Assembly (NCBI GenBank): GCA_003157775.1
Contig: PMKP01000355.1
Location: 1 to 33,250 of the forward strand
Source of the DNA: Myxococcales bacterium
Lineage (GTDB): Bacteria > Myxococcota_A > Polyangia > Fen-1088
Direction of reading: 5' to 3'
Length of the DNA: 33,250 bases
A model generated the notes under the pieces. The model had not been told where the DNA came from and did no database searches. It saw nothing but the letters and a program-made list of their open reading frames with translations. Shown one piece after another: positions 29,091 to 33,132 of the stretch (the stretch's first letter is position 1; each line of letters opens with the position of its first letter). The position numbers and the translations under genes are program-made.

Positions 29091-30200
29091 CTATTTCCCA
29101 CCGAACACGCGGCCCAGTCGCCGCCAAAGCGGCAGCCGGGCCTGGTGGGGTGGGGTAGGCTTGGCTGCCACGGCCGGCGCGGCCGCGACTGGTGCAGACG
29201 CCGTCTTGCTCGCAGCAGAAGGGACCGGCTTCGGCTTCCCCGGCGCAAAATCCTGGGTCACCGAAGCGGACAGCTTCTGCGCAGTCTCGCGCAGCTCAGC
29301 TTCCTGCTCATCGGTGAACCCCAGTACCTCACGGGCGCGCGCCAGGGTCTCAGGCGCCACCCGATCACAGCGGCCAGCCCCGATGGTGACGCCGTGGCCG
29401 AGCTTCTGGCTCAGGTCTTCGGCGATGGCAACCGTAGCGGAAAGAAGACTGGGGGGCTCACCGTCAGGAAAACTGTGGTGGTTGGCCAGCACATTCTGTA
29501 CCTCAGCCGGCAGCTTCCATAGCTGGGCGATCATGCCGGAGACTTCCTGGTGGGTCTGGCGCAAGACCTCGTCGAGTACCAGCGGGCTGATGGACGGCTC
29601 GTCCTTGGGGCGATCGGACAGCACCAGCAGCGTGGCTGCCATGCCAATATCGTGGAGCAGGCCGCACAGAAACGCGGTCTCCGTGGTCAGGGCCTTGCGC
29701 GAAGCTATCAGCCGGCAGAGGTGCGCACACATCGTGCTGTGCCTGCGGATCTGTTCCATCGCCGCAGCGTAGCGGGCCGAGCGAAACACCCGCATTCCCG
29801 CCGCGACTTCCCACACCACGCTGGCCAGGTGGCGCATGCCCAGCCGGACCACCGCGACCCGCAACGAGATGTCGTCTTCGCCCCAGCCTCCGTAGGCCGC
29901 CGAGCCGGCGACGCGCAGAACTTGTGCTGCGAGAACCGCGTCCTTCTCCAGCACCTCGACCAACTGATCCGCTCCCACGTCGGAGCGAAAGGACAGCTCA
30001 TGGACTTCCAGCGCCACCGTGGGAAGAAGCGGTGGCCGGTAGCTGGGCGCAGAGAACACACGCCGCAGTTGCGTCACAAAGGCGATCACCAGGGCCACGT
30101 CGGCCGACGGCAAAGCCGCATCCGGCGGAGCCCCGGTCTCCTGCGGCGCAGGCTGGGCGCCGGCCTGCGCATCGTGGGGGGAATTCCGCTCGCTCGTCAC
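29091..30200 (-). CDS. HDOD domain protein
   Basis: 'LLPTVALEVHELSFRSDVGADQLVEVLEKDAVLAAQVLRVAGSAAYG...LRVAVVRLGMRHLASVVWEVA...FLCGLLHDIGMAATLLV...HQEVSGMIAQLWKLPAEVQNVLANHHSF'. Confidence 0.9.
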   Translation of the reverse strand: MTSERNSPHDAQAGAQPAPQETGAPPDAALPSADVALVIAFVTQLRRVFSAPSYRPPLLPTVALEVHELSFRSDVGADQLVEVLEKDAVLAAQVLRVAGSAAYGGWGEDDISLRVAVVRLGMRHLASVVWEVAAGMRVFRSARYAAAMEQIRRHSTMCAHLCRLIASRKALTTETAFLCGLLHDIGMAATLLVLSDRPKDEPSISPLVLDEVLRQTHQEVSGMIAQLWKLPAEVQNVLANHHSFPDGEPPSLLSATVAIAEDLSQKLGHGVTIGAGRCDRVAPETLARAREVLGFTDEQEAELRETAQKLSASVTQDFAPGKPKPVPSAASKTASAPVAAAPAVAAKPTPPHQARLPLWRRLGRVFGGK

Positions 30201-30260: not shown

Positions 30261-30450
30261 CTGGGATTTGGAGGAGCGGAAAACGGTGGTGGGTAGCGGT
30301 AACGATGGCAGGGACGGGTGCGGCTACAGGGGCGGTGGCAGTTACCGGTGACGGATACGGTGGCGGCGGGCACAGGGCCGTCGTCCGGTAGGGGCGACCT
30401 GCGGTCGCCCAGGTGGCCCCAGGGCCGAGGCGGTGTCAGGGATGGGTCAG
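30261..30450 (+). repeat. Left arm of a ~185-bp imperfect inverted repeat (partner 31853-32034)
   Basis: Reverse complement aligns with 31853-32034, including an uninterrupted 53-nt identical core 30368-30420 (gggcacagggccgtcgtccggtaggggcgacctgcggtcgcccaggtggcccc). Confidence 0.95.
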
Positions 30451-30521
30451 GCGAATGGGTTCAAGAGTCTCACCCCTCATTGCCTCGCCAGAATCCCGCG
30501 ATGTATCATTGGGAGGAGCCG

Positions 30522-31322
30522 ATGCCGAACGAATTCTCCGAGATCGCCAAGCGCTACCGGGAAACCTCGCTTGTCCAGCAGAGCGCCGCGGAGACTCTCT
30601 TCCGCTTGCTTGCCATCGGGGGCTCGGAAGATGTGCTCGACGTGGGATGCGGGACCGGCAATCTGACGAAGAAGATCCGGGTGGCGACGTCGGGTAGGGT
30701 GGTCGGCATTGATCCAGCGGAAGGGATGATTGAGCGTGCGGCCCGCGAACACGGCGACGGTATCGATTTCGCGGTCTTGTCAGCCGAAGCCTTGTCTTTC
30801 CGTGAGGAATTCGACACCATCTTCTGCAATTCCACATTTCAATGGGTGCGCAACGCTGACAAGGCGGTGGCGGGGTTTGCCGGTGCGCTTCGGGCCGGCG
30901 GGCGAGTGGGCATCCAGGCGCCAGCGCGCTCCGACTACTGTCCGAATTTTCTTTCGGCCATCGAAGCCGTCGCCGCTGACCCCGCTCTTGGTCCAACCTT
31001 TACGCACTTCAAATCGCCGTGGTGTTTCTTCCAAGACGCAAGCGAATACTCGGCGTTGTTTGTCCGCCACGGGTTTCAGGTGCCGTTTGCGGAGATCCAG
31101 ACGGTCGACTCGACCTACACGCCTTCGCAAACCTTCGACATTTTCGCCTCTGGCGCGATTGCCGGGTATCTCGATCCTTCCTGCTACGGCTGCCCGATCG
31201 ACGAGCGATACATGACCGGGTTTCGGCAGACGGTACGCGAGCAGTTCGAGCGGCAGGCCGACGCGGATGGACTAGTCCGGCTTGTGTTCCGTAGGATCTT
31301 CCTGGTTGCTGTCAGAGCGTGA
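30522..31322 (+). CDS. Class I SAM-dependent methyltransferase
   Basis: MPNEFSEIAKRYRETSLVQQSAAETLFRLLAIGGSEDVLDVGCGTGNLTKKIRVATSGRVVGIDPAEGMIERA; ggaggag RBS upstream. Confidence 0.9.
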   Translation: MPNEFSEIAKRYRETSLVQQSAAETLFRLLAIGGSEDVLDVGCGTGNLTKKIRVATSGRVVGIDPAEGMIERAAREHGDGIDFAVLSAEALSFREEFDTIFCNSTFQWVRNADKAVAGFAGALRAGGRVGIQAPARSDYCPNFLSAIEAVAADPALGPTFTHFKSPWCFFQDASEYSALFVRHGFQVPFAEIQTVDSTYTPSQTFDIFASGAIAGYLDPSCYGCPIDERYMTGFRQTVREQFERQADADGLVRLVFRRIFLVAVRA

Positions 31323-31537
31323 TGGCGTCCTGCCAGCGCGTGGGCTCGACCGGCGGGCCCATGCTTTCGCCTCCGGTTTCCGCAGCTCGAAGGCGGAACG
31401 AAGGCGAAGGGATCCAGCAGAAAAGACCCCCACCGGCCGGGATGGTTTCGCGCTGACCCTGTCGTTTCGTGCTTGCGCCGGGCTCGGGGACCGTCACACG
31501 CGCGCGACGGCCCGTTTGCGGCCGCACGGAGGTCCCG

Positions 31538-31867
31538 ATGAAACGCTTCGAGGTTTACGAAATGGCTCTGCAGATGATCCGCTCTCTCCGCCCGGCGGTC
31601 GAGCGCATCCGGCAACACGACCGCGATCTGGCGGCGCAGCTCAAGCGCGCAGGCTCGTCAGTGCCGGGCAACATCGCCGAAGGGGCCCGGCGTGTGGGCC
31701 AGGATCGGCTGCACCACTACCGGGTCGCCGCTGGATCCGCTGGGGGAGTCCGTTCGCACCTGGCGGTCGCCCTGGCCTGGGGTGATGTGGACCAAGCCAC
31801 GGTCACGCCAGCACTGGCTCTGCTTGATTCCATCCTCGCGATTGTTTGGCGACTGACCCATCCCTGA
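31538..31867 (+). CDS. Four-helix-bundle protein (S23 / 23S rRNA intervening-sequence protein family)
   Basis: MKRFEVYEMALQMIRSLRPAVERIRQHDRDLAAQLKRAGSSVPGNIAEGARRVGQDRLHHYRVAAGSAGGVRSHLAVALAWGDVDQATVTPALALLDSILAIVWRLTHP. Confidence 0.88.
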   Translation: MKRFEVYEMALQMIRSLRPAVERIRQHDRDLAAQLKRAGSSVPGNIAEGARRVGQDRLHHYRVAAGSAGGVRSHLAVALAWGDVDQATVTPALALLDSILAIVWRLTHP

Positions 31868-32034
31868 CACCGCCCTGGCCCCGGGGCCACCTGGGCGACC
31901 GCAGGTCGCCCCTACCGGACGACGGCCCTGTGCCCACTGCCACCGTATCCGTCACCGACAACTGCCACCGCCTCTGTCACCGCACCCGCCCCTGCCACCG
32001 TCGCGGCTACGCACCACCGCTCCCCGAATCCCAG
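31853..32034 (-). repeat. Right arm of the ~185-bp imperfect inverted repeat (partner 30261-30450)
   Basis: 53-nt identical core at 31883-31935 in reverse complement; arm starts within the last codons of the four-helix-bundle gene. Confidence 0.95.
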
Positions 32035-32127: not shown

Positions 32128-33132
32128 ATGATCATTGCTGGCGACATCGGCGGAACCAAGACTGTCCTCGCGCTCTTCGAGACGGCGGGCGAGGATCTGC
32201 GCTGCGTGCGCGAGGCCACCTTTCCCAGCCTCGAATACCATGCGCTTGAGGCGGTGGTGGATGAGTTTCTCTCGGCCACCGCGCGGCCCGTGCTGACCGG
32301 CGCCTGCTTCGGTGTGGCCGGGCCGGTCGAGGGCGGCAGGGCTCGGCTGACCAATCTGCCTTGGTTGCTCGACGAGGAGCTGTTGGCCAAGTCCCTGCAC
32401 GCACCCCGTGTGCGTCTGCTCAATGATCTGGAAGCGGCCGCCTTCGGCATGTTGTTTCTTGCGTCTACCGATTTTGAGGTGCTGCAGCCTGGGAAGGCTG
32501 GCGCCCGAGGCGACATCGCGGTCATCGCGCCCGGCACCGGCCTGGGTGAGGCCCTGCTCCACTTCGACGGCAAGCAGTACCACGCCATTGCGTCGGAGGG
32601 CGGCCACGCCGACTTCGCCCCGCGCACGGACGACGAGATCGTTCTTCTGCGCCACCTGCGGGCGGCCCTGGGCGGCCATGTCAGCTACGAGCGCATCCTC
32701 TCAGGCGCCGGCATCGGCAACCTGTATCGCTGCCTGCGCAGCGAGGCCACCACCCGCGAGCCCGCCTGGCTGACTGAACAGCTTGGCAGCGGTGATCCCA
32801 ACGCGGCGATTTCGGCAGCCGCCTTGGCCAAACAGGATCCGGTGTGCGTGCAAGCCCTGCGCATGTTCTGTGCCGTGCTGGGTGCCGAGGCTGGGAACCT
32901 GGCGCTCAAGGGGATGACCACAGGAGGCGTGATCATCGGCGGCGGCATCGCCCCGAAGATCTTGCCGGCGCTCAAGGAAGGATCCTTTCTGGCAGCGCTC
33001 GCCGACAAGGGGCGCTTCTCGGGTTGGGCGAAGAACCTGCCGGTGCGGGTCGCGCTCGATCCGCGTGCGCCGCTCATCGGCGCCAGCCGCTACCTGGTCA
33101 GCAGCGCGATTCACCCGGGCGCAAGGGCGTAG
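32128..33132 (+). CDS. glk: Glucokinase (alternative ATG at 32086)
   Basis: MIIAGDIGGTKTVLALFETAGEDLRCVREATFPS...GACFGVAGPVEGGRARLTNLPW...LLNDLEAAAFGM...APGTGLGEALL...SEGGHADFAP. Confidence 0.92.
   Translation: MIIAGDIGGTKTVLALFETAGEDLRCVREATFPSLEYHALEAVVDEFLSATARPVLTGACFGVAGPVEGGRARLTNLPWLLDEELLAKSLHAPRVRLLNDLEAAAFGMLFLASTDFEVLQPGKAGARGDIAVIAPGTGLGEALLHFDGKQYHAIASEGGHADFAPRTDDEIVLLRHLRAALGGHVSYERILSGAGIGNLYRCLRSEATTREPAWLTEQLGSGDPNAAISAAALAKQDPVCVQALRMFCAVLGAEAGNLALKGMTTGGVIIGGGIAPKILPALKEGSFLAALADKGRFSGWAKNLPVRVALDPRAPLIGASRYLVSSAIHPGARA

Follow-up and report, generated by a model that had tools for sequence, protein, structure and literature searches.

A probable non-autonomous mobile cassette with ends formed by inverted S23 units carries a methyltransferase gene in a Myxococcales genome

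We analyzed a stretch of DNA of 33,250 nt from a Myxococcales bacterium (contig PMKP01000355.1), hereafter the window. A preliminary description had reported two inverted arms with a 53-nt identical core that flank a gene pair, a SAM methyltransferase and an S23/IVP-like four-helix-bundle protein. Both genes and both arms were recovered by our analysis, and domain searches of the interval between the arms found just these two genes and no transposase or recombinase, in agreement with that description. The features of the locus are as follows:

29091–30200, minus strand: left flanking host gene, HDOD protein (PF08668; syntenic in the genus)
30262–32033, no strand: whole element, between the HDOD gene and the glucokinase gene
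30262–30453, minus strand: left arm, a truncated S23 unit with the last codons (RLTHP-stop) and the tail (90% identity to the right arm; full-unit alignment)
30262–30271, plus strand: left terminus TGGGATTTGG (matches the right terminus in inverted orientation; terminus TGGGATTCGG shared with C299, locus L036, and with G003 C341, locus L110)
30368–30420, minus strand: 53-nt core, identical in both arms, with the REP-like palindrome GGGCGACC-GCA-GGTCGCCC inside (dispersed copies)
30454–31429, no strand: cargo interval (beyond the leader edge, units are unrelated in sequence)
30522–31322, plus strand: cargo gene, class I SAM methyltransferase with a BioC/Tam-like domain (PF13649/PF08241)
31430–31537, plus strand: S23-unit leader, sharply delimited on its inner side at CCACCGGCCGGGATGG (same boundary in 13 of 13 aligned type A units)
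31538–31867, plus strand: S23/IVP four-helix-bundle gene, 109 aa, twin-S23 clade (profiles, tree, structure; dN/dS ~0.09)
31850–32033, plus strand: right arm, the S23 gene end and the tail with palindrome and CACCG-type repeats (arm and unit alignments)
32025–32033, plus strand: right terminus CGAATCCCA (comparison with relatives)
32129–33132, plus strand: right flanking host gene, glucokinase, start codon approximate (PF02685; syntenic in the genus)

The two arms (30277–30453 and 31850–32026) are 177 nt long, 89% complementary and spaced by 1396 nt; by BLAST, the left arm matches the right one at 90% over 170 nt, and the longest exact run that they share is the 53-nt core. Their alignment, the best inverted match of a 5.25-kb segment, scored 231 bits, and 200 Markov-shuffled copies reached 32.8 bits at most; the arms are therefore genuine and far above chance expectation. 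They delimit a single element whose ends were refined by comparison with relatives: the left terminus begins at 30262 and the right terminus stops at 32033. Terminal inverted repeats (TGGGATTYGG..), the hallmark of MITEs and other TIR elements, are present, and the same termini are found in an element on contig C299 of the host genome and in an element of G003 that carries ScaI restriction-modification genes. Within the identical core lies a REP-like palindrome (GGGCGACC..GGTCGCCC), further copies of which occur at tens of places in the host genome. This palindrome, also seen on contigs C313, C176, C265 and C270, forms several tandem arrays of ~43–44 bp.

The right arm forms the tail end of a repeated unit of ~600 bp composed of a leader, the S23 gene and a tail that reaches position 32033. 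Because the inner end of this arm consists of the final S23 codons (R-L-T-H-P-stop), it overlaps the S23 gene and does not lie outside it, which corrects the reported layout on this point. The left arm retains the same last codons and is thus a truncated second unit, present as a tail in the opposite direction and broken just before these codons. All 13 aligned units have their inner edge (CCACCGGCCG-GATGG) at the identical base; past this edge, sequences are unrelated among units except where two species have the same cargo. Three tail-only arms (at 30453 in the window, ~5434 in L110 and ~5934 in L037) end almost identically, before the last S23 codons (CTGACCCATCCCTGA), and judging from the sequences this shared breakpoint looks as if it were a second functional boundary.

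The S23/IVP assignment of the window protein is well above profile cut-offs (PF05635, 47.6 bits, cut-off 33.8; TIGR02436, 46.4 bits, cut-off 24). Its AlphaFold model (pLDDT 95.8) has four helices, and the nearest PDB structures are 2gsc and 2rld, followed by Avd. The median dN/dS of S23 is 0.085 for the elements of the window's type (type A, defined below) and 0.12 for type B, whose upper range was inflated by one wrong row of 86 aa. These low values indicate that the protein is under selection, and the paired S23 genes experience strong purifying selection. In the S23 tree, 22 paired S23s fall on one side of a branch and 18 unpaired ones on the other (support 92/93), a separation that is suggestive and not final since there are long branches among the single genes. 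RNA folding of leaders and tails revealed no structure exceeding that of shuffled sequences, and an Rfam search of the element matched no family. Searches of plasmid and phage collections yielded no S23 gene of this kind.

In three sister species of the genus (G002, G003 and G005; loci L134, L135 and L138), the HDOD gene directly adjoins the glucokinase gene, which indicates that the window element is an insertion. At the same site, G006 has a solo tail of ~80 bp, and G004 retains the end of S23 and the right tail beside a different gene of 274 aa. A target duplication at this site is at most a weak similarity of ~9 bp. Empty versions of five more sites were identified, and a search with concatenated flanks detected such versions in two to six relatives per site; for type B elements, orthologous empty sites are L178 and L186. 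The content of occupied sites is variable. At one of them (L108 in G006 and L112 in G004), both flanks and both arms are orthologous and the cargos of 2.5 kb and 3.1 kb are unrelated. At argG, at C384 and at the site of the window element, three further cases, the flanks are conserved and the content varies by species; the locus sets that differ in content at the same site are L036/L123, L037/L120/L118 and window/L113. The cassette ends are conserved and the cargo is not: a single site holds different cargo, or none, depending on the species. Other DNA is also found at such sites. In the window's own genome (G000), ~16 kb including FeFe-hydrogenase-related and radical SAM genes interrupts, on contig C64 (L169), a site that carries S23 cassettes in G004 and G006. 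The place that the G006 C106 element occupies is taken in G003 (contig C140; L170, 1074–2627) by an AAA_21 (OLD/AbiEii-like) gene, with no detectable S23 gene.

Similar elements are present throughout the genus. Across its seven genomes, all 11 S23 pairs within 5 kb are in opposite orientation, and units occur almost exclusively as inverted pairs around 1.5–4 kb of cargo. In the host genome, an intact inverted pair surrounds an HNH nuclease gene on contig C299 and a degraded pair is found on C384. These copies, together with the empty sites and the different cargo at the same site, support the proposal of the preliminary description that the block is a non-autonomous mobile cassette; since an S23 gene accompanies every full-length copy, its suggestion of a repeat family travelling with four-helix-bundle genes is borne out as well. 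Arms confined to this locus and the lack of an empty site, which would have spoken against both, were not what we observed. We distinguish type A elements, whose S23 genes face outward, from type B elements, whose S23 genes face inward. The paired arms of an element are mostly 90–96% identical. In G003, G004 and G006, every type A element combines one alpha and one beta leader, and the S23 coding regions tend toward homogenization within an element. No intact solo unit was detected in the genus: the single genes of the clade are either truncated, paired with a degraded partner or located at contig ends.

The window cargo is a class I SAM methyltransferase (PF13649, E 2e-18; PF08241 was also matched) that scores 80 bits against the NCBIfam BioC model, below the BioC cut-off. 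Copies that are 94–95% identical are found in other contexts in G002 and G004; neighboring host genes are ~85–93% identical, and the methyltransferase therefore looks like a travelling gene. We surveyed 17 cargo sites of the genus with Pfam and PADLOC. Nucleases and restriction-modification genes include two HNH genes, a ScaI endonuclease with a DNA methylase, REase-ARP, Mrr, GmrSD/Mrr_N/HEPN and a DUF4365 protein, which is Argonaute-associated and REase-like. Other cargos are AAA_21 with DUF4276 (HEC-01), Schlafen AlbA_2 with a dCTP deaminase, DUF5655 (PDC-S18) and an SduA-like gene; the remaining ones belong to no family, apart from one lipoprotein (type B, L126). A PADLOC defense model was matched (E about 1e-5 or better) at 9 of the 17 sites, a count that leaves out the generic match of the window's methyltransferase. 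Of 10 flanking genes, one had more than a weak match, a generic Ser/Thr kinase (one-sided Fisher p = 0.03 for cargo versus flanks, and 0.007 with Pfam nucleases counted). The sample is small, the sites were not picked blind, and the 17 include S23-less remnants (L110, L118, L120 and L123) as well as L038, whose S23 genes are at contig ends; the matches are thus an enrichment and not proof of function. The cargo appears enriched in nucleases and defense genes, and homology is what points to a possible protection against phages. The window's own cargo is not a recognized defense gene. We also observed ~100–150 bp of common sequence directly 5' of differing cargo genes (L037, 5666–5810; L118, 1307–1473; L110, 5517–5664; L123, 3346–3491; L120, 2216–2314), which resembles a shared promoter or docking segment.

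The clearest traces of transposition come from type B. The Mrr element of G002 (L125) has CTAG on either side, and its empty counterpart in G000 and G005 has a single CTAG. Its termini are AACCGCCTCTCGTAGGTT and the inverse of this sequence. The terminal inverted repeats of type B (WACCGCCTCTCG..) are found at the outer ends only. A second type B element (L129) shows the same CTAG/CTAG arrangement, and five gene-less MITEs of 140–237 bp (L188, L189, L192, L196 and L199) present the same termini and CTAG. Searching the genus for the terminal pattern gave 99 matches, as compared to 0 for a reversed control. The terminal repeats and CTAG duplications that type B has in common with gene-less MITEs show past transposition without an encoded transposase. 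The seven fragmented MAGs yielded no transposase with matching ends; a 4.6-kb candidate autonomous element on G003 C267 proved to be a lone end and a separate MITE, without a transposase. Clean target duplications were observed for type B alone, and the transposition of type A is suggested by analogy with type B, by its terminal repeats and by its empty sites.

S23 genes also form inverted pairs in other Polyangia, where most are free of cargo. Seven convergent pairs, 18 bp apart, were found in G036 and five in G158, and divergent pairs in G231, G248 and G033. Across Polyangia, 51 of 57 neighboring S23 pairs are in opposite orientation (p = 3e-10 against even odds, with pairs taken as independent), and the six exceptions are all in G115; chance would yield such close pairs at 0.05–0.3 per genome. 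Hexanucleotide arrays flank the pairs, with a coverage of 23.5% within 450 bp as compared to 0.7% farther off. The multi-copy element of G036 has two diverged S23 paralogues (~54% identical) that were copied together, and G152 and G156 have an empty site, with an array remnant left in G044. One convergent pair with cargo, a metallophosphoesterase, occurs in another family (G140). No opposite S23 pair within 5 kb was found in 14 genomes of other phyla. As an exception to the inverted rule, G115 has five same-strand tandem S23 genes ~360–430 bp apart (C2:1856815–1859605). In G015, of the same family as the window's genome, there are thirteen S23 copies (e.g., C237:15769–16071), most with an in-frame TAG, which suggests the amplification of a broken or recoded S23 gene.

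We consider it probable that the block represents a degraded version of a non-autonomous mobile cassette with S23-unit ends, a transposase acting in trans, exchange of cargo through the arms and S23 proteins that act on the ends. Such a cassette would consist of two inverted end units, each with a leader, an S23 gene and a repeat-rich tail bearing the terminal repeat. Whole cassettes would enter between host genes when a transposase supplied from elsewhere recognizes their termini; this is shown in type B by the terminal repeats and CTAG duplications found also in MITEs, and type A presumably moves in the same way. Once inserted, the near-identical inverted arms would serve as a frame, and recombination between the arms of different cassettes would replace the cargo between the two leader edges; the expected outcome is seen at the site where both arms are orthologous. 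Since the cargo is often restriction- or defense-like, it likely pays for the upkeep of the frame. For the S23 proteins, the most likely role would be binding to the leaders or repeat arrays of the end units, by which these ends would be held or marked for mobilization. The window copy has lost its left S23 gene and has the methyltransferase as cargo. Some cases of cargo change could reflect repeated insertion at permissive sites, and some arms may be mis-joined because most genomes are MAGs; the pattern recurs across independent assemblies and is also seen in genomes that consist of a single contig (G231 and G248).

Alternatively, each ~600-bp unit might be an IS-like element whose S23 gene encodes an unrecognized mobility enzyme, inverted copies mobilizing the DNA between them as in many composite transposons. 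The sharp inner ends and recurrent outer ends of the units, their inverted pairing and the conservation of S23 are what one would expect. We nevertheless regard this as unlikely, given that the genus has no intact solo unit, that S23, as a four-helix bundle, lacks any known catalytic fold, that the terminal repeats of type B are confined to the outer ends and that the two S23 genes of a G036 element are different paralogues copied together. It is also possible to view S23 as a passenger, with REP-like or minisatellite repeats at permissive intergenic sites gathering defense genes by ordinary homologous recombination. The palindrome is indeed dispersed, and other DNA enters these sites too (the 16-kb cluster of G000 C64 and the S23-less AAA_21 gene of G003 C140). 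Precise terminal repeats with target duplications in type B, strictly inverted S23 pairs across families, purifying selection on S23 and the combination of one alpha and one beta leader in each type A element of G003, G004 and G006 all make this explanation improbable.

The preliminary description had also raised an invertible segment. A short gene set between long inverted arms could in principle be a phase-variable cassette that switches the expression of the methyltransferase or of a defense gene. We rejected this reading, which is very hard to maintain: there is no invertase or other recombinase in the element, the arms differ by 10%, no inverted allele was found among relatives, and the HNH cargo common to G004 and G006 has the same orientation in both.

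A bolder possibility can be put forward tentatively: twin-S23 elements might constitute their own class of mobile elements, in which the S23 pair would be no passenger but would recognize the ends, keep the inverted arms together and permit the replacement of cargo. If true, this would be a natural system that shuffles defense genes among fixed chromosomal sockets, and the intervening sequences of rRNA would be distantly related to twin-S23 elements. To our knowledge, S23/IVP proteins have gone for decades without an assigned function, and a role in mobility has been a conjecture. Our results give S23 a clear genetic context (inverted pairs at element ends, empty sites, terminal repeats, target duplications for type B and strong purifying selection) in which that conjecture becomes directly testable. 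They also point to a compact vehicle for swapping defense genes at fixed chromosomal positions in a bacterial lineage and, as several cargos match no known family, offer a guilt-by-association route to new defense genes. We found no description of inverted S23 pairs in open-licence papers, a weak form of evidence, and mobile cassettes framed by twin S23 genes are apparently undescribed.

The closest relatives in terms of protein are the intervening sequences of 23S rRNA. In PMC4990558 (citing Ralph and McClelland 1993), their S23 ORF is proposed as a mobility component, without direct evidence. The window element shares with these sequences (Coxiella IVS, PMC4990558) the family and fold (PF05635, TIGR02436; 2gsc, 2rld) and an ORF within a small, sporadically distributed, putatively mobile element. 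In contrast, it sits between the HDOD and glucokinase genes and not in a 23S rRNA gene, has inverted twin genes of a separate S23 clade, carries cargo and has DNA-level termini, which in type B are accompanied by target duplications. The relation to Avd of diversity-generating retroelements that was invoked in the preliminary description holds at the level of the fold (4dwl, 8ub7; TM ~0.8), with 11–15% identity in structural alignment, but it does not by itself explain the element, whose genes include no reverse transcriptase; a diversity-generating retroelement was rejected on this ground. Like core defense hotspots of Pseudomonas aeruginosa, where variable defense cargo occupies a conserved chromosomal site (PMC10250203), these loci combine a conserved site with variable defense cargo, but here the variable segment lies inside a dedicated mobile frame of 1.5–4 kb that recurs at many sites. 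Composite transposons likewise bracket cargo with inverted repeated units; the present units, however, encode S23 and no transposase, and have not been seen moving alone. MITEs and mobile insertion cassettes resemble the element in several features: terminal inverted repeats, a 4-bp CTAG duplication (type B), multiple copies, no transposase and short gene-less relatives. Unlike them, it has a conserved protein gene duplicated in inverted orientation, and its cargo changes while its ends stay. Rather than with diversity-generating retroelements, invertible segments or composite transposons, the element is best classed with the non-autonomous cassettes that have terminal repeats (MITE-like elements or mobile insertion cassettes), as one whose frame is of a new kind.
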